Shown: positions 49,218 to 61,962 of the stretch, piece by piece | Layout of the letters: the number at the start of each line of letters is the position of its first letter | Position numbering within the stretch: position 1 is the first letter of the stretch | Source of the DNA: Rhodococcus sp. (in: high G+C Gram-positive bacteria) | GTDB taxonomy: Bacteria > Actinomycetota > Actinomycetes > Mycobacteriales > Mycobacteriaceae | Direction of reading: 5' to 3' | Assembly: GCF_023264675.1 (NCBI RefSeq) | Contig: NZ_JAHFVG010000031.1 | Span: forward strand, 1 to 64,000 | DNA length: 64,000 nt | Translations under genes and position numbers: made by a program | The notes under the pieces: model-generated | What the model saw: the letters and a program-made list of their open reading frames with translations, nothing else | Told to the model about the DNA's origin: nothing | Database searches by the model: none

Positions 49218-49299
49218 TAAATTCTACGAAGAGTGCATACTCGAAGCTGAACCCACGCCCGCTGAACGATCCGGGCACGAGAGTACGAGAGGAGTCGTG

Positions 49300-51519
49300 A
49301 TGGAGATGTTCCCGCTGGTAGTGCTCGCGGACGATCTTTCGGGAGCCGCCGAGTCCGCCGCCGGATTTCTTGCACACGAGGTCTCCTTGAGCCTCGGAGT
49401 CCCGCCGGGTGACGGAGCTGTCACAGAGGTGACCGTCGTCGATCTTCATTCGCGCAAGCTCACGAGTGCCGACGCCGCGTTGTCGGTGCACGAGACGCTC
49501 GACGCCTTTCCCGGAGCACGCGTGGTGAAGAAGATCGATTCACTGCTGCGCGGCAATATCGAGGCCGAAGTCGGCGCCCTTGCGTCGGGTGGATCCCCGG
49601 TGATCGTCGTGGCAGGCTTTCCGAAGATCGATCGAACCGTCGTCGGCGGGGTGGTGCACGTTCGCGGTGTCCCGTTGCACGAAACGACGCTCTGGCACGC
49701 GGAGCACCGCGACGCCCCACTGTCGGTGGCAGCCGCGCTCGGCGAACTGCCGACCACGGGTGTGTCGCTCGATCAGGTCCGCAGCGCGGGACTCGGTGAA
49801 GTGTTCGCCGATCTCGTTGCGCTGGGCAGGGTTCCGGTGTGCGACGCCGAAACCGATGCGGACATCGATGGGATCGTCGCGGCGTCTCGGTCCGTCGAGG
49901 GCGTCAGGCTCGTCGGTACTGCGGCGCTGATGGCGTCGTTGGCGCGTGCCGCGCATGTGAGTGCGAATACATACCCCACTATGGATTCGCACGCACATGG
50001 GCGAAGCGCCCTGGTCGTCGTCGGCACCGCCGATCTGGTTGCCGTCGAACAAGTTCGAGCGCTAGCGGATTCGGGAACGCCGCACATCCGGCTCGACGCA
50101 TCGTCGCTCGCCGATTCCTCGGTCGATGTGACACCGGTATTGGCGGCCCTCGACTCCGGTAGCGCCATCGTGACGGTCTCGGGTCCGGTCTCGCCCGCGA
50201 ACTCGGGTGCAGTGGTCGCAGGGTTGGCCGACGTGGTTGCCGAGATCGAACGTGATCGAAAGTCGGATCTGGTCCTGACCGGCGGCGAGACCGCGCGAAC
50301 GGTACTCGATCGTCTCGGCGTGCGCAGGTTGGCTCCGGTCCGCGAGATCGAAACCGGCGCAGTGCTTTCCCTGACGCCTGCCGGCCGCAGAGTCATCACC
50401 AGGCCAGGAAGCTTCGGAGGCGTCGACAGCCTCCGCATTCTCACCGACTCGCTCACCGGCGCGTCGGCACACACTTCTCGTACCGACAGCAAGGAAATCC
50501 CCATGACAGAGACAACCCCACTTCCGCTCGTCGCCGTCACCATGGGTGACGGTGCAGGCGTCGGACCCGAGGTCATCGTTCCCGCACTACTGGACGCCAA
50601 GACGATGTCGTGGTGCCGTCCCGTCGTGATCGGCGATGCAAAGCGACTGAAGCTCGCCGCGGACGTGCTCGGTCTCGATGTCGATATCGCGGTGATCGCC
50701 ACGATCGCCGACGCAGAATTCACTCCCGGACGCATCAACGTCATCGATCTCGATCTGTTGCCGCAGGACCTGGCGTGGGGCGAACTGTCCGCAGTCGCCG
50801 GCGACGCCGCCTACCAGTACATCCGCGTCGCAAGCGAACTCGCCGTGCGCGGTGAGGTTCAGGCCATCTGCACTGCTCCGCTCAACAAGGAAGCTCTGCA
50901 CGCTGCCGGTCACATCTACCCGGGTCACACCGAGCTGCTGGCGCATCTGACGGGTACCGACGAGGTGTCCATGATGCTCTCGACGCCCAAGCTCAAGGTC
51001 ATCCACGTCACCACGCACATCGGCCTTCTCGACGCCGTCGCGAAGATCGAGCCCGGTCTCGTCGAGCGCACCATCCGTCGCGGCCACGAAGCACTCGTGC
51101 GTACCGGCAACGAGAATCCGAAGATCGGGGTGTGCGGTATCAACCCGCACGCCGGTGAGAACGGTCTCTTCGGCTACGGCGAGGAAGACCTCAAGATCGT
51201 CCCGGCCGTCGACAAGCTGAAGGCCGACGGCATCGACGTGGTCGGACCGCTGCCGGCAGACACCGCATTCTTCCTGGCCGGCCGCGGAGACTACGACCTC
51301 ATCGTCGCGATGTACCACGACCAGGGCCACGGTCCGGTCAAGGTCCTCGGCATCGAGGCCGGGGTCAACATCACCGTCGGGCTCCCGGTCATTCGGACGT
51401 CGGTCGACCACGGCACCGCTTTCGATATTGCAGGCAAGGGAATCGCGGAGGCCGGTAGTATGGTCGAAGCGCTTCGTCAGGCTGCCGAATTGGCCACGAG
51501 CACAGCAGTTCTGAAGTAG
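49300..51519 (+). CDS. Fusion of four-carbon acid-sugar kinase (DUF1537) and PdxA2-type dehydrogenase
   Basis: A single 739-residue frame. Residues 1 to about 390 are a DUF1537 kinase (ADDLSGAAESAAGF at the start, VVKKIDSLLRGN, LVLTGGETARTVLDRLG near the end), which phosphorylates threonate or erythronate. Residues about 402-739 are a PdxA-family dehydrogenase (MGDGAGVGPEVI, metal His in YPGHTELLAHLTGT, VTTHIGLLDAV and YHDQGHGPVKV), which oxidatively decarboxylates 4-phospho-acid sugars to dihydroxyacetone phosphate. The two are normally separate genes. An internal ATG at 50503 has AAGGAAATCCCC before it, so a free PdxA2 may also be made. ATG at 49300 follows GGAG; a GTG one codon earlier is possible. 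Confidence 0.87.
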   Translation: MEMFPLVVLADDLSGAAESAAGFLAHEVSLSLGVPPGDGAVTEVTVVDLHSRKLTSADAALSVHETLDAFPGARVVKKIDSLLRGNIEAEVGALASGGSPVIVVAGFPKIDRTVVGGVVHVRGVPLHETTLWHAEHRDAPLSVAAALGELPTTGVSLDQVRSAGLGEVFADLVALGRVPVCDAETDADIDGIVAASRSVEGVRLVGTAALMASLARAAHVSANTYPTMDSHAHGRSALVVVGTADLVAVEQVRALADSGTPHIRLDASSLADSSVDVTPVLAALDSGSAIVTVSGPVSPANSGAVVAGLADVVAEIERDRKSDLVLTGGETARTVLDRLGVRRLAPVREIETGAVLSLTPAGRRVITRPGSFGGVDSLRILTDSLTGASAHTSRTDSKEIPMTETTPLPLVAVTMGDGAGVGPEVIVPALLDAKTMSWCRPVVIGDAKRLKLAADVLGLDVDIAVIATIADAEFTPGRINVIDLDLLPQDLAWGELSAVAGDAAYQYIRVASELAVRGEVQAICTAPLNKEALHAAGHIYPGHTELLAHLTGTDEVSMMLSTPKLKVIHVTTHIGLLDAVAKIEPGLVERTIRRGHEALVRTGNENPKIGVCGINPHAGENGLFGYGEEDLKIVPAVDKLKADGIDVVGPLPADTAFFLAGRGDYDLIVAMYHDQGHGPVKVLGIEAGVNITVGLPVIRTSVDHGTAFDIAGKGIAEAGSMVEALRQAAELATSTAVLK

Positions 51520-51545: not shown

Positions 51546-52316
51546 ATGGTGGCCGTTCGGGAGTCCGAGGCGAGGCGCACGGAGATCGTACGCATGGCCA
51601 AGACGTCTGGCCTTGCGAGCGTCGAGGAGTTGGCGACGCAGTTCGGCGTCACGGCGTCCACCATTCGGCGCGATCTGAGTCAGCTCACGTCGCAGGGGTT
51701 GATGGCGCGCACCTACGGCGGCGCTATCGCTCTCGACCCGCATCCGGAATCCTCGCTACGCCAGCGTGCGCTCGAAGGATTCGAAGCCAAGCGGGCCATC
51801 GCCGAATGGGCTGCCGGCCAGATCAACCCGGGTGAGACCGTGCTGCTCGATGCCGGGACGACGGTGGGGACCATGGGCGAGTTTCTCCGCGACGCCGAGA
51901 ACCTCACGGTCATCGCGGCGGGATTGACGGCCCTCGAGGCGCTCGCCGACGCGGATTCCGTTCGGGTGGAGTGCCTCGGCGGAACTCTGCGTCACCTCAG
52001 CCAGGGATTCGTCGGGCCCATCGCCGAAGCGTCGTTGCAGCGGGTCTCGTTCGACCGCGCATTTCTCGGGGCCGATGCAGTCACGGCAGAGTTCGGTATC
52101 TGTGAGGCGGAGCTGCGTCAGACGCGGCTCAAGGAGATGATGATGGAACGGGCGGGCAAGACGTATGTACTTGCGCATTCCGCCAAGCTCGGACAGAAAC
52201 CTTTTCATGCGTGGGCACCCATTCCACCGGGCACCACGCTGGTGACCGACTCCGGGGCGAGCGCCGAGCAGGTCGAACCGTTCCGTGCGGCCGGAATCGA
52301 CGTCGTGATTGTCTGA
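51546..52316 (+). CDS. DeoR/GlpR family transcriptional regulator
   Basis: A 256-residue regulator. An N-terminal HTH (SVEELATQFGVTASTIRRDL, residues about 21-40) is followed by the sugar-phosphate-binding DeoR C-terminal domain (TVLLDAGTTVGTM, FLGADAV and VLAHSAKLG). DeoR proteins sense a phosphorylated sugar. Placed 26 bp after the kinase-PdxA2 gene, it probably senses a four-carbon acid-sugar phosphate and controls the divergent cluster, with the operators at 49171-49217 as candidate targets. Confidence 0.87.
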   Translation: MVAVRESEARRTEIVRMAKTSGLASVEELATQFGVTASTIRRDLSQLTSQGLMARTYGGAIALDPHPESSLRQRALEGFEAKRAIAEWAAGQINPGETVLLDAGTTVGTMGEFLRDAENLTVIAAGLTALEALADADSVRVECLGGTLRHLSQGFVGPIAEASLQRVSFDRAFLGADAVTAEFGICEAELRQTRLKEMMMERAGKTYVLAHSAKLGQKPFHAWAPIPPGTTLVTDSGASAEQVEPFRAAGIDVVIV

Positions 52317-53624: not shown

Positions 53625-54722
53625 ATGCCCGATCATGTCGAGATCACCAGCGATCGCGAACGCGTCGAAGAACGAGTCAGGCGGTGGTGCGAACGCGCCC
53701 GCCTGGACGGTCGGCGTGCCGCACTGTCCGACGCTGCGGCGGTCGCCATCGCTGCGGGAAGGCTCGACGAGGACACCCGCGCGATCCTCGCGGAGCGCCG
53801 TCGTGCCGGAAAGCCACTGCCGTCGGTCGGCGGATTCGCCGCGATCCGAGTACTCGACGACGAACGCCGGCGATGGTTGGCCAAGGACACCAAGAACAAG
53901 CCGGGCTCGGCTCTGGTCTACCGAATGCGCGCCGCCGAACTGGCCAAAAGGCTGGAACATCTGCGTACGGCGCTGGTGATGTCCACCAAGCACTATGCGA
54001 CGGGAGTCCGTGCGGTGCGCCGCGACCGCCGCGACGGCCTACATCTCGATCTCACCCAGCGAGATGCCCTGTTCGACGCCTTGATCCATACTCCTGTGCC
54101 GAAGCAGGAAACCGGAACCGTGGCCGTTCGTACCGGACTCTCGATGCTCGATTCCGCTGCCGACCGGGTTGCCGAGGTCGCGAAGAACACCCGGTTCGAA
54201 GAGCTCGGCGATCGTGCCTCGTCCGTGATGGCGGACTTCGCCGACCAGAAAGACGACGTCTTCACCGACCGCTACGAGACCTTGCTATTCCTCGCCGGGT
54301 CGTCGATCGATCAGGTGCAGCTCTCGCCCGCCTGGCGCTCCGACCACTTCGTGGTGCAAAGAACGCAACTCGATCTCGTCGACGAACTCACCCAGGTCGC
54401 AGTCGATACCAACTCCCTGCGTGAGATCGCCGACGAACTCGACGGCATCGCCGCCATGATGTTCGACGATGCCACCCGAGCTCAGGTGGCGAGCCGCCGA
54501 ACCGCTCTCGACGCGGTGTGGTCGCAACTCGTCGACCGCGTCGCCGCGCTGGTTCGAGTCGCCGACCTGGTCACGCGCGCCGAGGGCGATCTGCGCACCC
54601 TCGACGTCGTCGAGAAGGCGCACAGCCTGGACAACAGGATCGACGCCCTCATCGCGCGGGCAGGCAATCGCGAACTGTCGGCGGACAACACGCATTTCGT
54701 CGGCGACCAACTCGGAACCTAG
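53625..54722 (+). CDS. Hypothetical helical protein
   Basis: A 365-residue soluble protein of unknown family, strongly helical, with basic N-terminal segments (ERVEERVRRWCERARLDGRR) and many Leu/Arg/Asp heptad-like stretches that could form coiled coils. No catalytic motif is visible. ATG at 53625 follows GAGGAG. Its stop codon shares the CTAG at 54719-54722 with the stop of the convergent permease gene. Confidence 0.6.
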   Translation: MPDHVEITSDRERVEERVRRWCERARLDGRRAALSDAAAVAIAAGRLDEDTRAILAERRRAGKPLPSVGGFAAIRVLDDERRRWLAKDTKNKPGSALVYRMRAAELAKRLEHLRTALVMSTKHYATGVRAVRRDRRDGLHLDLTQRDALFDALIHTPVPKQETGTVAVRTGLSMLDSAADRVAEVAKNTRFEELGDRASSVMADFADQKDDVFTDRYETLLFLAGSSIDQVQLSPAWRSDHFVVQRTQLDLVDELTQVAVDTNSLREIADELDGIAAMMFDDATRAQVASRRTALDAVWSQLVDRVAALVRVADLVTRAEGDLRTLDVVEKAHSLDNRIDALIARAGNRELSADNTHFVGDQLGT

Positions 54723-56155
54723 GCGACGATCGCGAACAGCACTGCCGCTACTGCGAAACTGACGACGGACAGAATCGTTTCGAGCACCGTCCAGGTCTGC
54801 AGGGTCTGTTTGACCGTCATGTTGAAGAACTTCGAGATAATCCAGAAACCGCCGTCGTTGACGTGGCTGAGGATGATCGAGCCCGACGCGATGGCCATGG
54901 CGACCAATGCGGTGGCCATCGGCGAATAGTCCTGAGCCGCGACCAACGGTCCGACGATGCCGCCCGTGGTCACGATCGCGACCGTCGCGGATCCCTGCGC
55001 GATACGCAGTGCGCAGCTGATGACGTAGGCCAGGACGATGATCGGTAGGCCCGCGGCGGCCATGGCGTCGGCGAGTGCGGTTCCGATGCCAGTCGCGGAG
55101 ATGACCTTGCCGAAGAAGGCGCCCGCACCGACGACCAGCAACAGCATGCCGACAGGCCGCAGGGATTCTCCGGTCAGTGTGCTGAGTTCCTGAACCGTGG
55201 AGCCGCGCCTGATTCCGAGAACATAGAACGCGATCAGAACGGCGATCAGCAGCGCGACGGCAGGCGTTCCGAGGAAGGTCAGTACTTCGAGGAGATTGCC
55301 CGGGTCGAGCAGGATGCTTCCGAATGTCGCGCCGAGAATCAGGACAAGGGGCACGGCGATGATCGTGCCGATGAGACCGACCGACGGGGGAGTGGTGACG
55401 ACGGGGCGCTTGGTCGCGACCGACGTGCCGCCGGTGCCTTCGGGTTCCACATCGGCGTCGTTGATGAAGTCTTCCGGTACGTCCACGATGACGCGCTTGC
55501 CGATCCAGTTACCCCACACCAGACCTGCAGCGATGAATCCTGGTATTCCGCAGACGAATCCCATCAGGATCAACCAGCCGAGGTTGACCTCGAGCAAACC
55601 GCCGAGGGCAACGGGGCCGGGATGCGGGGGGAGGAAGGCGTGAGTCATCGACAGACCGGCCAGCATCGGCAGTGCGTACAGCACCAGAGACTTTCCGCCC
55701 TGCCTGGCGGCGACGTAGACCAACGGCGCGAGCACGAAGATACCGATGTCGAAGAATACCGGGATTCCGAAGATGAGCCCGAGCAGACCCATCGCGATCG
55801 GTGCACCGCGTTCGCCGAAGATTCCGAGTAGCTTCGACGTCAATGCCTGTGCGCCACCGGATCGTTCGAGAATCGCGCCGAGCACCGTACCGAGGCCGAT
55901 GATCACCGCGATGTGCCCGAGGATTCCGCCGAAGCCGGTTTCGAGCAGCGATTCGTTGCTCTTGATGGCGGTCCCGACGATCTCCGACACCGGCAACCCT
56001 GCGGCCAGTGCGAGCCCGAGGCCGACGATCAGCAACGCGACGAAGGGCTCGAGCTTGACCTTGATGATGACGACGAGAAGTACTGCGATGGCGAGGCCAC
56101 ACAGAACGAGAAGACCGGGGGTGGACGTCCTCAGCCAGTCGACAGCGGTACTCAT
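54719..56155 (-). CDS. GntP family sugar-acid permease
   Basis: A 478-residue membrane protein with about 12-14 hydrophobic segments, of the gluconate:H+ symporter family. Typical blocks are SLLETGFGGILGHIAVIIGL, FGIPVFFDIGIFVLAPLVYV, AFLPPHPGPVALG and the C-terminal HVNDGGFWIISKFFNMTV. It is the last gene of the leftward operon with KDPG aldolase, deacylase and PLP dehydratase, overlapping the aldolase gene by four bases. In context it may import N-acetylglucosaminate or glucosaminate; specificity is inferred. Confidence 0.88.
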   Translation of the reverse strand: MSTAVDWLRTSTPGLLVLCGLAIAVLLVVIIKVKLEPFVALLIVGLGLALAAGLPVSEIVGTAIKSNESLLETGFGGILGHIAVIIGLGTVLGAILERSGGAQALTSKLLGIFGERGAPIAMGLLGLIFGIPVFFDIGIFVLAPLVYVAARQGGKSLVLYALPMLAGLSMTHAFLPPHPGPVALGGLLEVNLGWLILMGFVCGIPGFIAAGLVWGNWIGKRVIVDVPEDFINDADVEPEGTGGTSVATKRPVVTTPPSVGLIGTIIAVPLVLILGATFGSILLDPGNLLEVLTFLGTPAVALLIAVLIAFYVLGIRRGSTVQELSTLTGESLRPVGMLLLVVGAGAFFGKVISATGIGTALADAMAAAGLPIIVLAYVISCALRIAQGSATVAIVTTGGIVGPLVAAQDYSPMATALVAMAIASGSIILSHVNDGGFWIISKFFNMTVKQTLQTWTVLETILSVVSFAVAAVLFAIVA

Positions 56156-56793
56156 AAGTGACCTTTCGGAAGGGGGCGTGTGCCCAGTGACTCGACGAAA
56201 ATGTGTGCGCGTGCGGCAATGTCGTCCCATTGCCCGGCCGCGACCGCGGCCGGTGAGACGACGTCTGTTCCGGCGGTGACGGCGACCGCACCCGCCGCGA
56301 GGAAATCTGCGGCGTTGGATGCGTTGACGCCGCCCGAGGGCACCAAGGGGGCGTCGGGAAGCGGACCGAGAAGGTCCTTGAAGTGGGCTGCTCCCAGTGC
56401 CCTCGCGGGGAAGATCTTCACCGCGGCAGCACCGAGATCGAGCGCATCCATGACCTCGCTCGGAGTGAGCGCTCCCATCATGACGGGAACCCCGCGGGCG
56501 GCGGCAACCTCGGCGACTGCAGGACGAAGCCCCGGTGTTACCAGAAACTGGGCACCGGAATCGATGGCGGCACGTGCCTGCTCGGCAGTGAGTACCGTTC
56601 CGGCGCCGATCACTGCTCCACCGTCCGCCGCGTTCCTGATCAGGGTGAGGACGTCAGGGGTGGTGAATGTGAGTTCGACCGCCCTGATCCCACCTCGCGC
56701 CAAGGCGTCGGCGAGCGCGGTCGGGTCGCTGATGGTCGGTGCTCGAACGACTGCGAGGGCTCGGTCGTCGAGGATCGTCTGTAGTGCGTTCAT
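56152..56793 (-). CDS. eda: KDPG/KHG aldolase (Eda family)
   Basis: A 213-residue class I aldolase cleaving 2-keto-3-deoxy-6-phosphogluconate to pyruvate and glyceraldehyde 3-phosphate. The catalytic Glu is in AVELTFTTPD, the phosphate/keto-acid site in FLVTPGLRP, and the Schiff-base Lys in AAVKIFPARALGA. It overlaps both neighbouring genes by four bases. The matching kinase is encoded divergently at 59787, so the two catalyse consecutive steps. Confidence 0.9.
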   Translation of the reverse strand: MNALQTILDDRALAVVRAPTISDPTALADALARGGIRAVELTFTTPDVLTLIRNAADGGAVIGAGTVLTAEQARAAIDSGAQFLVTPGLRPAVAEVAAARGVPVMMGALTPSEVMDALDLGAAAVKIFPARALGAAHFKDLLGPLPDAPLVPSGGVNASNAADFLAAGAVAVTAGTDVVSPAAVAAGQWDDIAARAHIFVESLGTRPLPKGHL

Positions 56794-58382
56794 CGCGTCG
56801 TCCTCAGTGAATGGCCGGCGAGTGTGCCGGTGGGTGAGCCGTTGTCGATGGCAAGGCTGCCGTTGACGAGGACATGGCTGATACCGATCGCCTGCTGTTT
56901 GGGGTTGTCGAAAGTTGCCGTGTCTCTGATGGTGTCGGGGTCGAACAGAACCAGATCGGCGGCGTGACCCTCGGCGATGGTGCCGCGATCGGTCAAGCCG
57001 AGTCGCGCTGCCGGGCGTCCGGTCAGATGGTTGATGCACTCCTCCAGTCCGAGCAGCTGCTCCTCTCGCACATAGTGACCGAGGTACCGGGGGAACGTTC
57101 CCCACGCACGTGGATGCGGCCGCTCACCGACGAGAATGGCATCGCTGCCACCCATGTGCTGCGGATGCGCCATGATTTCGCGAACGTTCTCCTCGTGACC
57201 GACGTGCTGAAGGATCGTCGTCGCGAGCTGGTCGCGTTGGAGGATGTCGAAGAACACCTCGGCAGGAGATTCGCCGCGGTCGGTCGCGATATCGATCATG
57301 GTCCGGCCGACGTACCCGTCGAGTTCGGAGTTGGCGACGCCGCTGATCTGGATCGTCTCCCACTCCACCGTCACGCCGTGACATCCGTCGGAACCGTTGA
57401 CGTCGACGTCCTCGGTGATCCGCGCACGCACGGCGGGATCGGCCATCCGAGCGAGCGCCTGATCCGGTCCACCCGACATCGCCCAACTGGGAAGCAGCGC
57501 CGACAACGTGGTGGCTCCGGGCAGATAGGGGTAGGTGTCGAGAGTGACGTCGCAGCCGTCGGCGATCGCAGAATCGACCTTGTCGAGGAATTCCCGTGCG
57601 CGGCCGCGGTTCACACCGAAGTTCATCGTCGCGTGGGTCAGGTGCAGTGCGCATCCGGTGTCTCGCGCCAGATCGAGCATCTCCTGGTAGGCCTCGAGCG
57701 CACCTGCTCCATAGGATCTGGTGTGCGGGGCATAGAAGCCACCGAAATCGGCAACCACCTCGCACAATGCGCGAAGTTCGCCGGTATCGGCGTACATGCC
57801 GGGCGTGTAGGTGAGGCCGCTCGACATCCCGACGGCGCCCTCGCTCAAACCCTGAGCCAATAGTTCTTGCATCCGGCCGATCTCGCGCGGTGTCGCAGGT
57901 CGCTGATCGCCGCCGACGGCAAGGTAGCGCAACGTGCCCTGTGGGACGAGGTAGGCGGCGTTCGGTGTGATGCCCTGGTCAAGACGCGTCAGGTATTCGG
58001 CCACCGAGCGCCACGAGAAATCGAGGTCCGACGGATTGCCGTTCCAGCCGGCGATCTGGCGTCGAACGATGTCGAGCGTCGCATCGTCGATGGGGGCGTA
58101 GGCGATACCGTCCTGACCGATGACCTCCGTGGTGACACCCTGACTGATCTTGGGAAAGTGCCCCGGATCGGTGAGCAACCGAAGATCCGAATGTGCGTGC
58201 ATGTCGATGAAGCCGGGGGAGAGAACATGGCCGGGCTGTGCATCGATCACCCGGTCGGCGCTTGCGGTCTCGTCCGGTGCAGTGACGGCGGCGATCCGGC
58301 CGTTGTCGACCAGTACGTCGCGTCGCAACCGCGGTGATCCCGTTCCGTCGACCACATCGGCGCCGCGAATCAATAGTTTCAT
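56790..58382 (-). CDS. N-acyl-D-amino-acid deacylase-like amidohydrolase
   Basis: A 530-residue amidohydrolase-superfamily enzyme. The zinc HxH is in PGFIDMHAHSDL, another metal His in CALHLTHATMNF, and the C-terminal GTIAEGHAADLVLFDPDTI closes the composite domain. In classical D-aminoacylases a metal-ligand Cys sits in GNCG; here the matching stretch is EVIGQDGIAYAP, with Asp in its place, as in a less-studied subgroup. In this cluster the likely reaction is removal of acetate from N-acetyl-D-glucosaminate, whose C2 has the D-amino-acid configuration. The reaction is inferred from neighbours; the family is clear. Confidence 0.83.
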   Translation of the reverse strand: MKLLIRGADVVDGTGSPRLRRDVLVDNGRIAAVTAPDETASADRVIDAQPGHVLSPGFIDMHAHSDLRLLTDPGHFPKISQGVTTEVIGQDGIAYAPIDDATLDIVRRQIAGWNGNPSDLDFSWRSVAEYLTRLDQGITPNAAYLVPQGTLRYLAVGGDQRPATPREIGRMQELLAQGLSEGAVGMSSGLTYTPGMYADTGELRALCEVVADFGGFYAPHTRSYGAGALEAYQEMLDLARDTGCALHLTHATMNFGVNRGRAREFLDKVDSAIADGCDVTLDTYPYLPGATTLSALLPSWAMSGGPDQALARMADPAVRARITEDVDVNGSDGCHGVTVEWETIQISGVANSELDGYVGRTMIDIATDRGESPAEVFFDILQRDQLATTILQHVGHEENVREIMAHPQHMGGSDAILVGERPHPRAWGTFPRYLGHYVREEQLLGLEECINHLTGRPAARLGLTDRGTIAEGHAADLVLFDPDTIRDTATFDNPKQQAIGISHVLVNGSLAIDNGSPTGTLAGHSLRTTR

Positions 58383-58393
58383 GTGTTCGAGTC

Positions 58394-59662
58394 CTAGAAG
58401 AAGGTGTGGATCAAGTCCACGACGCGCGGGTTGTCGGAGTCGGAATCATCGATGACGGGAATCAGACGCCATTTGTCGAACGCCGTGCACGGATGCGAGA
58501 GGCCCAGCCGTACAACAGTTCCCACCGGAGCAGCTGCGTCATCGTCGGGAAAACGGAGAAACGCATGCTGATCGTTGAGTGCGGTGACCTCGCCCGATGC
58601 CGACTGCGGAACGGGCAGGCCTTCGTCGTACGGGAGGTCCCGTTTGCCTGCATCCAAGAGTGCAAGTCCAGGTTCGGGACGAGAGACCACGCGCGCCCAT
58701 CCGTGCATCGCGGCGGCGAGGGGATGATCGGATCGACTCGGAATCATGGGAGAGATCTGCGAGTAGAAGCCGTCGTCGTGAATTATGTACGCCCCCGATC
58801 GCACAACCACCGAGGTCGGAACACCGTTGGTTCCGTTCTCGTCGGCAAGCGATGCGAGGTGCAGGGCAACGAGATCCTGGTACGCGCTACCTCCGGCCGT
58901 GACGACGGCATGGTCGCCGTAGAGGCCGGCGGCGTCGAGATCCTGGTGGAGGGTGCGGACTGCGCGAAGATAATCGGCCACAGCGGCAAGACCGGCCTCG
59001 GATCGGTCGTGGCTGAGCGCACCTTCGTATCCGCCGACCCCGGCCAGCGACAGATACGGAGACGCGGCCACCGCCTCGGCGATGTCACGGGCATGCTCGA
59101 CGCTACGGGCCCCGGTTCGACCGTGGTCGCCTCCGAGTTCGACGATCACGGCGATCTGGCGCGCAGAGCCGGCCTCGCCGAGCACGGCGTCCATTGCCTC
59201 GACGGTGCGCAGACCGTCTACCCAGCAGTAGAACTCGAATTCGGGATGCGCGTCGAGTTCGGTTGCCAGCCATCTCAGCCCGACCGGATCGACGGCGGAG
59301 TTGGCGAGCATGATTCGTTCGACTCCGAAGCGTCGCGCAAGCTGTACCTGCCAGATGGTCGCCAAAGTGATTGCCCAGGAACCCGAGTCGAGTTGGCGCT
59401 TCCACAGAACGGGCGCCATCGTTGTTTTTCCGTGGGGTGCGAGCTTCACACCGGCCTCCTCGGCCCACGCCGCCATCACCGCAATGTTGTGGTCGATCTT
59501 TGCGTTGTCGACCGTCAACAACGGCGTGTGGAACCTGTTCAGTTCAGGCTGCGCGGCGACGAAATCCTCGATCGAGCGCCCCCAGGAGTCGGCAGGCAGT
59601 GACTTGTGCTCCGGGCCGATCGCTTGTGTGCGAAGAGCATTCACGGCATTCGAGTCGATCAA
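58394..59662 (-). CDS. D-serine dehydratase/D-threonine aldolase-like PLP enzyme (putative D-glucosaminate dehydratase)
   Basis: A 422-residue fold-type III (alanine racemase-like) PLP enzyme. The N-terminal barrel carries the Lys in KLAPHGKTTMAP and a glycine-rich phosphate site (VTAGGSAYQD). The C-terminal part has the zinc-site pattern SHPCTAFDKW found in eukaryotic-type D-serine dehydratases. The family deaminates D-hydroxy-amino acids or cleaves D-threonine. Next to KDPG aldolase and a keto-deoxygluconate-type kinase, deamination of D-glucosaminate to 2-keto-3-deoxygluconate is the best guess. First gene of the leftward operon. Confidence 0.83.
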   Translation of the reverse strand: MIDSNAVNALRTQAIGPEHKSLPADSWGRSIEDFVAAQPELNRFHTPLLTVDNAKIDHNIAVMAAWAEEAGVKLAPHGKTTMAPVLWKRQLDSGSWAITLATIWQVQLARRFGVERIMLANSAVDPVGLRWLATELDAHPEFEFYCWVDGLRTVEAMDAVLGEAGSARQIAVIVELGGDHGRTGARSVEHARDIAEAVAASPYLSLAGVGGYEGALSHDRSEAGLAAVADYLRAVRTLHQDLDAAGLYGDHAVVTAGGSAYQDLVALHLASLADENGTNGVPTSVVVRSGAYIIHDDGFYSQISPMIPSRSDHPLAAAMHGWARVVSRPEPGLALLDAGKRDLPYDEGLPVPQSASGEVTALNDQHAFLRFPDDDAAAPVGTVVRLGLSHPCTAFDKWRLIPVIDDSDSDNPRVVDLIHTFF

Positions 59663-59688
59663 GGTAGGTCCTCCGTACGACGCTCATT

Positions 59689-59720
59689 GCGTTGCGTATT
59701 TTGCAACGCATGTTGCGTAA
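59689..59720. promoter_or_regulatory. Overlapping inverted repeats in the divergent promoter (IclR operator candidate)
   Basis: GCGTTGC (59689-59695) and GCAACGC (59703-59709) are perfect complements, and TTGCAACGCATGTTGCGTAA (59701-59720) forms a second, imperfect repeat sharing one arm. The site lies between the PLP enzyme and kinase starts; the IclR regulator at 60791 is the obvious candidate binder. Confidence 0.6.
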
Positions 59721-59786
59721 AATGTTTGTGATTAGTAGTGTGCATCTACGGAGGGCAAACCCGCAAGCATTCGAAGGAGATCTTTT

Positions 59787-60794
59787 GTGACGTCGTCTCG
59801 GGTTGTGTGCGTCGGCGAGGGGTTGGCGGTACTCGTCGCCGAACCCGGCCCCCTCGAGGATTCCGAGTCGTTCCGGCGATCAGCAGGGGGAGCGGAGGCA
59901 AACGTCGCCCGAGTCCTCGTCCAACTCGAGGTGTCGGCGGCATGGATCTCGCGCGTGGGTGACGACGGTTTCGGCCGGTACCTGGTCCGGCAGCTGGACG
60001 ATGCCGGAGTCGACGTCTCCGCCGTATCGATCGATCCATCGCGTCCGACGGGGATGTACGTCAAAGCGCGGGGCGCGGGCACCGGCGCCAGCGGTGATCT
60101 GGCGCTCGGCGACAGTTCGATGACCTATTTTCGGGCCGGATCGGCAGCCAGCGCGCTGTCGGTCGCAGACATTTCGGTAGCACCCGCCGAGTCGCTGGTC
60201 CGTAACTCGGAGATGGTTCATTTCTCGGGAATTACCGTCGCGCTCTCGGAAACGGCTCGGGGAATGACCCGAGCCCTCCTGGCGTCGGCGTCGACAGTCA
60301 GTTTCGATGTGAACTTTCGACCGGCGCTGTGGGGTGAGGGCATCGACCGGGCGGCCGGCGAGCTGGCCGATCACGTCCGCGGCAGCGACGTTGTGTTCAT
60401 GGGTGCCGACGAGGCGTTCGAGGTATTCGGAATCGCTGATCCGGAGGCGTTGCGCGCCGAGTTTCCCGAACCTCGATACTTGGTAGTGAAGAACGATGCG
60501 CATGTCGTGACTGCTTTCGACGGGCCATCTCGCGTCGATGTGCCGGCGCTGACTCTCGACGTGGTGGAAAAGATCGGGGCCGGCGACGCCTTCGCCGGCG
60601 GTTACCTGGCCGGAATGGCCAAGGGCCTCTCGGCGGTCGGCCGCGTTCGTCTCGGACATCTTTGTGCTGCAGGCGCACTCACTGCCCATGGCGACGTCGC
60701 GCAGGTCCTCGATTCGTCGAGTTTGACGGCGGCATTGTATCTTTCCGACGACGAGTGGAGTGGCGTCGACTTCGCGGAACTGGTGGTTCTGTGA
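59787..60794 (+). CDS. kdgK: PfkB family kinase, 2-keto-3-deoxygluconate kinase-like
   Basis: A 335-residue ribokinase-fold kinase: substrate loop RRSAGGAEANVARVLVQL (residues about 32-48) and the ATP/anion hole KIGAGDAFAGGYLAG near 258-272. The expected reaction is ATP-dependent phosphorylation of 2-keto-3-deoxygluconate to KDPG, the substrate of the aldolase encoded across the divergent promoter. GTG start with AAGGAGA at 5 bp. It overlaps the IclR gene (GTGA). The substrate assignment rests on context. Confidence 0.85.
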   Translation: MTSSRVVCVGEGLAVLVAEPGPLEDSESFRRSAGGAEANVARVLVQLEVSAAWISRVGDDGFGRYLVRQLDDAGVDVSAVSIDPSRPTGMYVKARGAGTGASGDLALGDSSMTYFRAGSAASALSVADISVAPAESLVRNSEMVHFSGITVALSETARGMTRALLASASTVSFDVNFRPALWGEGIDRAAGELADHVRGSDVVFMGADEAFEVFGIADPEALRAEFPEPRYLVVKNDAHVVTAFDGPSRVDVPALTLDVVEKIGAGDAFAGGYLAGMAKGLSAVGRVRLGHLCAAGALTAHGDVAQVLDSSSLTAALYLSDDEWSGVDFAELVVL

Positions 60795-61561
60795 GCCAGA
60801 GTCTTTCGCGCGCATTGACCATCCTCGGGTTGCTCGGGGACGAATCGCGGTCTCTTGATCAGCTCGCCGGTGAACTCGACGTCCACAAGACCACGGTGCT
60901 TCGGTTGCTGCGCACGATGGAAGCGGACAGATTCGTCCAGCACGACGCCGACCATCGATACGTCCTCGGATCACGCCTGTTCGAACTCGCCAATCGAGCG
61001 CTGGAACAACGCGACGTTCGTTCGATTGCCCGTCCGCACCTGGCGGCGCTCAATGCCTCCACTGGGCAGACGATTCACCTTGCTACCTACGAGGGAGGCG
61101 AAGCGGTGTACATCGACAAGTTCGATGCCAAGCAAAGCGTTCGGATGTACTCGAGAATCGGTCGTCCGGCCGCTCTGCATTGCACTGCCGTCGGGAAAGT
61201 TCTCGTAGCGGCGAAGCCTCGCGCCGAGCAGGTCGAGATCGCGCACCGAATCGAGTATCGGAAGTTCACCGAGCGGACCATCCAGTCACCCGAGCACTAT
61301 CTGGCCGAGCTGGAACTCGTTACCCAGCAGGGATATGCCGAGGACCACGAGGAACACGAATCCTTCGTCAACTGCGTCGGCGTTCCTGTCCGAGACGGCA
61401 CCGGAAACACAGTTGCCGCCGTATCCATGTCGGTCCCGGACATGCTGCTCGATCACGCCCACGTACTGGCCACTCTGCCTGAGATCGTGGCCGTGGCCGC
61501 AGCGATCTCTGCCGATCTGGGGTGGAAGCCCGAATCCGAAGTTTCACAGAAAGGAAAATGA
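60791..61561 (+). CDS. IclR family transcriptional regulator
   Basis: A 256-residue regulator with an N-terminal winged HTH (SLDQLAGELDVHKTTVLRLL) and the IclR effector domain (TAVGKVLVAAKP, YAEDHEEHESFVNCVGVPV). IclR proteins commonly control sugar-acid catabolism, as KdgR does. It is translationally coupled to the kinase gene and to RidA and probably acts on the divergent promoter at 59689-59720. Confidence 0.88.
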   Translation: MSQSLSRALTILGLLGDESRSLDQLAGELDVHKTTVLRLLRTMEADRFVQHDADHRYVLGSRLFELANRALEQRDVRSIARPHLAALNASTGQTIHLATYEGGEAVYIDKFDAKQSVRMYSRIGRPAALHCTAVGKVLVAAKPRAEQVEIAHRIEYRKFTERTIQSPEHYLAELELVTQQGYAEDHEEHESFVNCVGVPVRDGTGNTVAAVSMSVPDMLLDHAHVLATLPEIVAVAAAISADLGWKPESEVSQKGK

Positions 61562-61962
61562 TGAGCGAGAAGATCGCAGTTCGAACCGACGGAGCGCCCG
61601 CGCCTGCCCACACCTTTTCGCAAGGGGTGCGAAAAGGCCCGTTCGTCCAGGTGTCCGGCCAGGGACCAGTCGATCCGGCAACCAGCGAATACCTCTTTCC
61701 GGGAGATGTTGCCGCTCAGACGACCCGCACGCTCGAAAACGTCCGCGCGATCGTCGAGGCGAGCGGCGCGACGTTCGACGACGTCGTCATGCTCCGCGTG
61801 TATCTCACCAAGCGCGAGGATTTTGCCGTGATGAACGACGCCTATGGCGAGTTCGTGAACAAGTACACCAAGGGCGATGTATTGCCCAGTCGTACAACGG
61901 TGTTCACGGGGCTTCCTCGGGAAGAAATGCTCGTGGAAATCGACGCCGTAGCAATCGTCTGA
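61561..61962 (+). CDS. RidA family enamine/imine deaminase
   Basis: A 133-residue RidA/YjgF protein. The conserved GPFVQVSGQGPVDP and the substrate-binding Arg in PSRTTVFTGLPREEMLVEID are visible. RidA hydrolyses reactive enamines and imines released by PLP dehydratases; it fits well with the PLP enzyme of this cluster, speeding ammonia release or protecting other PLP enzymes. ATG at 61561 (spacing 6 from AAGGAAA) is preferred over the ATG three bases earlier; it overlaps the IclR stop. A strong terminator follows. Confidence 0.88.
   Translation: MSEKIAVRTDGAPAPAHTFSQGVRKGPFVQVSGQGPVDPATSEYLFPGDVAAQTTRTLENVRAIVEASGATFDDVVMLRVYLTKREDFAVMNDAYGEFVNKYTKGDVLPSRTTVFTGLPREEMLVEIDAVAIV

Follow-up and report, generated by a model that had tools for sequence, protein, structure and literature searches.

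The closest described system is the ong cluster, through which Pseudoalteromonas prydzensis catabolises N-acetyl-D-glucosaminate (GlcNAc1A), and for which the chemistry is proven (PMC9537276). The founding paper reports the pathway from Gammaproteobacteria and one Betaproteobacterium, and makes no mention of Actinobacteria, Streptomyces, IclR or GntP. Its deacetylase, OngB (PDB 9kb1), is described as having a Cys/His/His metal site, and a Lys254 that is strictly conserved in OngB and in both groups of D-aminoacylases (PMC12017989). In the literature searched (open PMC text), we found neither an actinobacterial version of this pathway or of the cluster described below, nor a description of soil bacteria using the oxidised chitin ends made by lytic polysaccharide monooxygenases (LPMOs). 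Here we analyse a 64,000-nucleotide stretch of Rhodococcus sp. (contig NZ_JAHFVG010000031.1, positions 1 to 64,000 of the forward strand; hereafter the window), in which seven adjacent genes at 54719-61962 form two divergent operons. We consider it reasonably probable that they form a regulon, controlled by an IclR protein, for the breakdown of an N-acylated 2-amino-2-deoxy-D-hexonate that a GntP permease takes up, GlcNAc1A being the likeliest.

In the route that we propose, GntP would import the N-acyl-2-amino-2-deoxy-D-hexonate, most likely GlcNAc1A, from which the amidohydrolase would strip the acyl group. A pyridoxal phosphate (PLP)-dependent lyase would then act on the free amino acid, eliminating both water and ammonia to leave 2-keto-3-deoxygluconate (KDG), with RidA clearing the enamine/imine. 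A PfkB kinase would convert KDG to 2-keto-3-deoxy-6-phosphogluconate (KDPG), and an aldolase would split KDPG into pyruvate and glyceraldehyde 3-phosphate, whilst the IclR protein would act as the switch, through an operator at the cluster and, in one other genus, at an unlinked aldolase gene. Both the substrate and the order of reactions are inferred, and N-acetyl-D-glucosaminate is our best guess.

Gene content and operon structure

The leftward operon (minus strand) begins with a fold-type III PLP enzyme bearing an SHPC motif (58394..59662, TTG start), the proposed aminoaldonate ammonia-lyase, and continues through a D-aminoacylase-like amidohydrolase of a distinct subfamily (56790..58382), the proposed aminoaldonate deacylase, and a KDPG/2-keto-4-hydroxyglutarate aldolase of the Eda family (56152..56793) to an aldonate/gluconate-type permease of the GntP family (54719..56155); gene limits, the starts of the last two among them, were set by sequence. 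On the plus strand, the rightward operon holds a PfkB-family kinase (59787..60794, GTG start), the proposed KDG kinase, an IclR-family regulator (60791..61561, GTG start) and a RidA-family protein (61558..61962), the proposed enamine/imine hydrolase partner of the lyase. Genes are tightly packed, with a 4-base overlap at four of the five within-operon junctions and an 11-base gap between the PLP and amidohydrolase genes. The preliminary description, made from the window alone, had named these seven families as neighbours, almost all of whose junctions overlap or nearly touch, and Pfam matches and gene limits agree with it on both counts.

Pfam families are clear for all seven proteins, including PF14031 (74.1 bits) for the PLP enzyme, PF07969 (134.4 bits) for the amidohydrolase, PF02447 (407.4 bits) for the permease, PF00294 (129.4 bits) for the kinase, PF01614 and PF09339 for the regulator, and PF01042 (102.2 bits) for RidA. 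Only the permease (TIGR00791, 376.7 bits, cut-off 292.75) and the aldolase (TIGR01182, 184.6 bits, cut-off 156.05) score above the cut-off of an NCBIfam model. The best such model for the kinase is a bifunctional KDG/2-keto-3-deoxygalactonate (KDGal) kinase (158 bits, cut-off 400), its best PDB match being the KDG kinase 1v19 (121.1 bits); the regulator is closest to KdgR (184.6 bits, cut-off 275), and RidA to TIGR00004 (96.4 bits, cut-off 106.25). In the organism's own genome the PLP enzyme has no other match, and the amidohydrolase just three further ones, all weak and partial.

Distribution of the cluster

The PLP gene is present in 23 of the 25 genomes of the window genus, its own included. 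Neighbourhoods were fetched from 17 other genomes, five further PLP-positive genomes being left aside, and 13 of these 17 hold all seven genes, a recurrence which argues that the cluster is not a chance assembly. Locus L085 has six of the genes, with RidA not detected, and L075 has five on a 7-kb contig. Beyond the genus, the full set occurs in relatives from the same family (L192, L193), order (L091) and class (L197), in Tsukamurella tyrosinosolvens (L176, annotated) and in Arthrobacter sp. StoSoilB13 (L177, unannotated, found by similarity), and a Microbacterium plasmid carries kinase fragments, a PLP gene, an amidohydrolase and a Rid gene together. Among 396 genomes sampled from the phylum, 91 match the amidohydrolase at 1e-30 and 15 at 1e-170 or better: the window's own, one more of its genus, eleven of a genus that we take to be Streptomyces (partly from its class and LPMO content) and two others. 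In a class-level sample of 394 genomes, 74 match at 1e-120, spanning 20 of 137 genera.

We tallied deacylase motifs and neighbouring genes at 54 loci, the window included (L068-L073, L090, L092 and L093, where the deacylase is distant or absent, were set aside). A HATxNF motif marks the deacylase at 38 loci, and the stretches fetched around these contain the PLP gene in 38 cases, RidA in 37, PfkB and IclR in 33 each, and the KDPG aldolase in 21. A sister motif, AHCHVNF, occurs at five loci, none of which has a fold-III PLP gene; two of them (L066, L201) instead encode a relative of DgaE (196-209 bits, under cut-offs of 385 and 600), L066 additionally carrying PfkB, KDPG aldolase, IclR and RidA. 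The remaining 11 comprise L080 and L087 without a deacylase, L075 at a contig end, and L202-L209 with neither motif.

A conserved operator points to a regulon

Alignment of the PLP-PfkB intergenic regions revealed a three-half-site operator, CGTTGCGTATTTTGCAACGCATGTTGCG in the window (59690..59717, plus strand), which lies in the divergent promoter and consists of the palindrome GTTGC-N7-GCAAC followed by a third half-site. We infer that it is bound by the cluster's IclR protein. Of the 38 HATxNF loci, 34 carry the operator, and the four that lack it (L067, L195, L210, L211) are loci where no IclR gene was detected; at L194 the site is present and the IclR gene was not detected. The palindrome without the third half-site occurs 5' of the IclR gene in L066 and inside the DgaE-type locus L201. 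No operator was found at L080 or L087, where the PLP gene is all that is kept of the leftward operon; this could reflect erosion or another use of the enzyme.

In whole-genome scans, an exact pattern matched 24 times in 15 genomes, 15 times at the cluster and nine times elsewhere (two matches for a reversed-pattern control), and a slightly longer pattern matched 18 times in 13 further genomes: 13 at the cluster, three at an aldolase gene and two elsewhere (control, none). The cluster itself was thus matched in every genome scanned (15/15 and 13/13). We considered a wider IclR regulon and rejected it, four of the nine off-cluster exact-pattern sites having been read with no obvious pathway gene, and several having a different conserved site in common. 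The off-cluster matches L220, L230, L232 and L233 resemble each other and are perhaps the site of another regulator; by eye, those of L220 and L233 precede an FAD-oxidoreductase-like frame.

In the phylum sample, all 11 inferred-Streptomyces genomes have the cluster and operator, and all 11 clusters read lack the KDPG aldolase. The three matches at an aldolase gene came from this genus and lay ahead of a KDPG-aldolase gene; upstream regions of unlinked aldolase genes were then scored using a matrix derived from 32 different cluster operators, the window site among them. The inferred-Streptomyces aldolase served as query in 20 genomes, 17 of which belong to that genus (the clusters of six of the 17 being unread). 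Excepting G352, which has no aldolase orthologue, the operator precedes the unlinked KDPG-aldolase gene in 16 of 16, lying 27-70 bases before the match at 22.3-38.7 bits. None of seven paralogous aldolases has it (best score -4.7), nor does it occur within 300 bases of the three aldolase homologues from other genera. One of these three genomes, G602, has an operator-like site (24.0 bits) some 110 bases ahead of a PfkB gene that lies away from the cluster, with the aldolase directly downstream. The best model for this kinase is again KDG/KDGal kinase (166 bits, cut-off 400); in the G602 cluster, L194, neither a kinase nor an aldolase was detected. Where the set has been split, the operator therefore re-joins it, and among the new findings its presence at unlinked aldolase genes speaks most strongly for a route by way of KDG and KDPG. 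The regulon is real and widespread in actinobacteria.

The deacylase is not OngB

In the PDB, the amidohydrolase matches the D-aminoacylases AfDam (1m7j, 265.5 bits) and BbDam (249.9 bits) ahead of 9g5m (248.5 bits) and PpOngB (205.1 bits). A PpOngB/9g5m profile was used to collect OngB-type loci, and all counts given here for these loci refer to the best 80 of at least 480 relatives. With the orthologue from a P. prydzensis metagenome-assembled genome (L097) as residue ruler, thirteen pocket positions read LYEKYSSSQ[GCN]DLR in 79 OngB-type rows, a few exceptions aside, and IYYTYGATRVDIR in the window enzyme. The window enzyme retains the HxH, both His positions, the catalytic Asp, Tyr194, Tyr285 and Arg379, and departs from OngB in having Tyr for Glu226, Thr for Lys254, Gly for Ser290, Ala for Ser291, Thr for Ser292 and GQDG for GNCG. 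Ser292 and Gln298 are specificity residues of OngB, and Lys254 is an anchor. Position 298 aligns to Arg, in a stretch gapped with insertions that leave the assignment unsure. Thr292 is not exclusive, being shared with three of the 79 OngB-type rows (L153, L155, L156), one of which also has Arg at 298. The window motifs GQDG, PHTRSY and HATMNF lie gap-free within the alignment, save for one column opened by other rows.

A quick tree of 68 rows, with near-duplicates removed and OngB-type sequences thinned to 20, places these 20 and AfDam on one side with a support of 100, and the window clade outside. On residues and tree we reject orthology with OngB, so that, if the substrate is GlcNAc1A, the deacylase activity probably arose separately from that of OngB. 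Two side observations concern these genes. The RidA proteins of L067 (11018-11425), L210 and L211 are 81-87% identical to that of the window, and the adjoining deacylases just 54-57%; and, outside Pseudomonadota, an Acidobacteriaceae metagenome-assembled genome (L146) combines an OngB-type deacylase with matches to the PLP enzyme, RidA and GntP.

The PLP enzyme appears to lie next to the OngC side

D-threonine aldolases and 3-hydroxyaspartate aldolases are also fold-type III PLP enzymes, a group in which an HxC/HxD motif is tied to metal. PHGKT and SHPC occur in the PLP enzyme of the window and in each of the 18 rows from OngB-type loci; the aldolase 4v15 has SHVD at the latter motif (of three aldolase rows, the motif is visible only in 4v15). 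The best PDB match of the window enzyme is 3gwq (215.8 bits), which is named a D-serine deaminase. A quick tree of 65 rows was drawn from 116 candidates and four PDB pieces, with 18 rows kept for the OngB-type loci. In it these rows, 3gwq among them, fall on one side (support 93), and the actinobacterial rows, with two plasmid rows linked to amino-acid transporters, on the other (support 82). The aldolases sit beyond a long branch with a support of 100, together with rows from L020, L021, L068 and L189. On this tree, the PLP enzyme groups as sister to the OngC-side rows and away from the D-threonine aldolases, so that the preliminary description is not refuted on this point.

The name of 3gwq may be wrong, as it falls among the PLP enzymes of OngB-type loci. 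Separately, plasmids of Klebsiella variicola (L181:2240-8215) and Pantoea (L182:2185-8146) hold a PLP-enzyme relative together with an IclR gene, RidA and an amino-acid ATP-binding cassette (ABC) transporter, perhaps a D-amino-acid deamination cluster.

Chitin and amino-sugar context

No AA10 LPMO was found in the window organism's own genome or in any of the 25 genomes of its genus, and none of the 25 has GH18, other chitinase families not having been searched. AA10 LPMOs are present in 11 of the 11 inferred-Streptomyces genomes, in G429 and G422, and in 13 of 43 genomes overall. In six genomes (G023, G128, G171, G193, G334, G429) LPMO and cluster share a contig, with the nearest LPMO match more than 1 Mb away; we rejected a linkage between them on this distance, no scan of the neighbourhoods with LPMO or chitinase models having been made. 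Of the 25 genus genomes, 19 have a NagA-like match (1e-50 or better), one of them over the cut-off. The window organism may thus use N-acetyl-D-glucosamine (GlcNAc), and its genus gives no sign of chitin attack by the AA10 or GH18 families, so the link from soil chitin oxidation to this organism that had been suggested at the outset is not borne out.

Amino-sugar genes adjoin the cluster in a few lineages only. L067 has nagB over the cut-off, with ROK kinase-like and ROK regulator-like genes, beside the deacylase, PLP gene and RidA, and its congener L211 also combines a nagB that exceeds the cut-off with ROK-like genes. Farther away on the tree, NagB- and NagA-like genes occur in L208, both under their cut-offs, and a NagB-II-like gene in L203 (214.8 bits, cut-off 430). 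Two candidates were discarded: L068 (nagA, SIS and ROK genes), whose deacylase keeps GNCG, Glu226 and Lys254 and whose PLP enzyme falls with the aldolases, and a NagA-like gene in L203, which at 22.2 bits is under the Pfam cut-off.

Two further sets deserve mention. In small low-GC actinobacterial genomes (L203:6000-10100, L209:6500-11900), a PLP gene, RidA, a short-chain dehydrogenase/reductase (SDR)-family gene and a related deacylase lie together, next to a solute-binding-protein gene in L209; these may form an intracellular oxidative GlcNAc route. On haloarchaeal plasmids (L178, L183, L187), a D-aminoacylase, an FAH-family hydrolase and a class-V-fold PLP gene follow one another, with heparinase II/III, GH20, sulfatase or PIG-L genes nearby, and the PLP protein of L183 matches the DgaE family. 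This arrangement was seen in three of the nine plasmid loci read and not in the other six, and we rejected the link; the three deacylases keep Glu226 and Lys254, so we regard these loci as distant support only.

Elsewhere in the window, a single open frame at 49297-51519 (plus strand) unites PF07005 and PF17042 (four-carbon acid-sugar kinase) with PdxA (PF04166), and is followed by a DeoR regulator at 51546. The kinase and PdxA domains match two separate frames in relatives L077 and L078; the L089 frame runs open through the junction.

Discussion

A catabolic route from an N-acyl-2-amino-2-deoxy-aldonate through KDG to KDPG is supported by the operator at unlinked aldolase genes, by the DgaE-family replacements, by the nagB neighbours in one genus and by a PLP enzyme that appears to lie beside the OngC side. 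This part of the preliminary GlcNAc1A proposal has gained ground; identity of the deacylase with the marine one and the chitin link are not supported.

Several observations weigh against our interpretation. The deacylase lacks OngB pocket residues, Lys254 among them, so its substrate may differ; a distant Azospirillum relative adjoins RidA, a PLP gene and peptide-type ABC genes; and the window genus is without AA10 LPMO or GH18. Five of the seven proteins (kinase, IclR, RidA, amidohydrolase and PLP enzyme) fall under the cut-offs of their best NCBIfam models. Within the genus, L080 and L087 keep the PLP gene with no deacylase, aldolase or permease there, and three of the five sister-type loci (L198-L200) show neither type of PLP gene in the stretch fetched. 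PLP relatives on the Klebsiella and Pantoea plasmids adjoin amino-acid ABC transporters, with no kinase or aldolase, and OngC itself is reported to deaminate D-serine and D-threonine too (PMC9537276); the PLP family alone can therefore not fix the substrate.

The alternative that survives best, though we think it unlikely, keeps the chemistry and changes the substrate, to free D-glucosaminate, N-acetyl-galactosaminate or -mannosaminate, or another N-acyl aminoaldonate. The altered deacylase pocket would fit, as would the KDG/KDGal model of the kinase and the three haloarchaeal loci with their class-V-fold PLP genes, the L183 protein matching the DgaE family. Aldolase scores point the other way: the inferred-Streptomyces enzyme whose gene bears the operator reaches 257 bits on the eda model (cut-off 156) and 104.5 on that for 2-keto-3-deoxy-6-phosphogalactonate (KDPGal) aldolase (cut-off 207), which favours the gluco form, and the window aldolase, at 184.6 on eda, reaches 112 on the KDPGal model. 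With free glucosaminate as substrate, moreover, the deacylase would have no point.

Perhaps, instead, the substrate is made inside the cell, a dehydrogenase oxidising GlcNAc to the lactone or aldonate and the cluster finishing the route, with no chitin oxidation involved. The SDR-family gene between PLP/RidA and deacylase in L203 and L209, the solute-binding-protein gene of L209, the NagB-II-like gene of L203, the nagB and ROK neighbours of L067 and L211, and a window genus without LPMO all speak for this. We nevertheless consider it quite unlikely, for the window cluster has no dehydrogenase gene and does have an aldonate-type permease, which suggests that the acid is taken up, and the L203 and L209 deacylases, at 45-46% identity, lack HATxNF. 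Least likely of all is the breakdown of N-acyl-D-amino acids, such as those of D-serine or D-threonine, by deacylase, D-amino-acid dehydratase and RidA, which has in its favour the PDB proximity of the deacylase to AfDam and of the PLP enzyme to 3gwq, the transporter-linked plasmid relatives and the Azospirillum context, but leaves the kinase, the KDPG aldolase, GntP and the operator at unlinked aldolase genes unexplained, 3gwq itself falling among enzymes of OngB-type loci.

There is also a broader idea, which we find plausible without quite believing it: that Actinobacteria evolved a GlcNAc1A pathway of their own, apart from the marine Gammaproteobacteria. It would have a new carbohydrate de-N-acetylase subfamily, with an Asp where the metal-site Cys would stand and a reshaped pocket, and a single IclR protein whose control extends to an unlinked KDPG aldolase. 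The Streptomyces cluster would then be the missing fate of LPMO-oxidised chitin ends, with the product scavenged by relatives that have no LPMO, the window organism among them. The cluster may also represent a second deacetylase, evolved separately, that acts on this or a similar substrate. Gene set, operator and regulator in inferred Streptomyces (11/11) can be put to the test at once.

How, then, does this cluster stand beside the systems already described? From the D-aminoacylases, with which it shares the amidohydrolase family, the HxH and the catalytic Asp, the window deacylase differs by the missing Cys of GNCG, which we take to be a metal ligand, as in AfDam and in the Cys/His/His site described for OngB (PMC12017989), and the missing equivalent of Lys254, its clade having GQDG and HAT. 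From the D-threonine aldolases, the PLP enzyme is set apart by SHPC in place of SHVD, and by the long branch. DgaE, whose relatives replace the PLP enzyme in L066 and L201, eliminates ammonia from a glucosaminate, as is proposed for the PLP enzyme, but belongs to a separate, SelA-like PLP family, and the named enzyme acts on a phosphorylated substrate.

The ong pathway remains the nearest. Common to both are a deacylase of the D-aminoacylase superfamily (OngB belonging to the same amidohydrolase family as the window enzyme; PMC12017989), a fold-III PLP deaminase, RidA and a sugar kinase. At the family level, the window matches the KDG kinase, the RidA and the optional KDPG aldolase, the last of which is described for the Vibrio, Klebsiella and Serratia versions (PMC9537276). 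P. prydzensis uses a sodium solute symporter and a MurR/RpiR regulator, where the window has GntP and IclR; the window cluster also lacks the GH20 enzyme OngA and a TonB receptor, and its genome lacks an AA10 LPMO. Across the OngB-type loci, the fetched stretches contain the PLP gene in 74 cases, RidA in 35, PfkB in 20 and the KDPG aldolase in 17, and in addition IclR in eight and GntP in five, so that the difference from ong narrows to the deacylase, which stands outside the OngB and AfDam clade, whilst the PLP enzyme appears to belong to a branch sister to OngC. By its deacylase, judged on residues and tree, the cluster is not a member of the marine pathway; the reaction logic first recognised in it gains support, and the likeness is functional, not orthologous.

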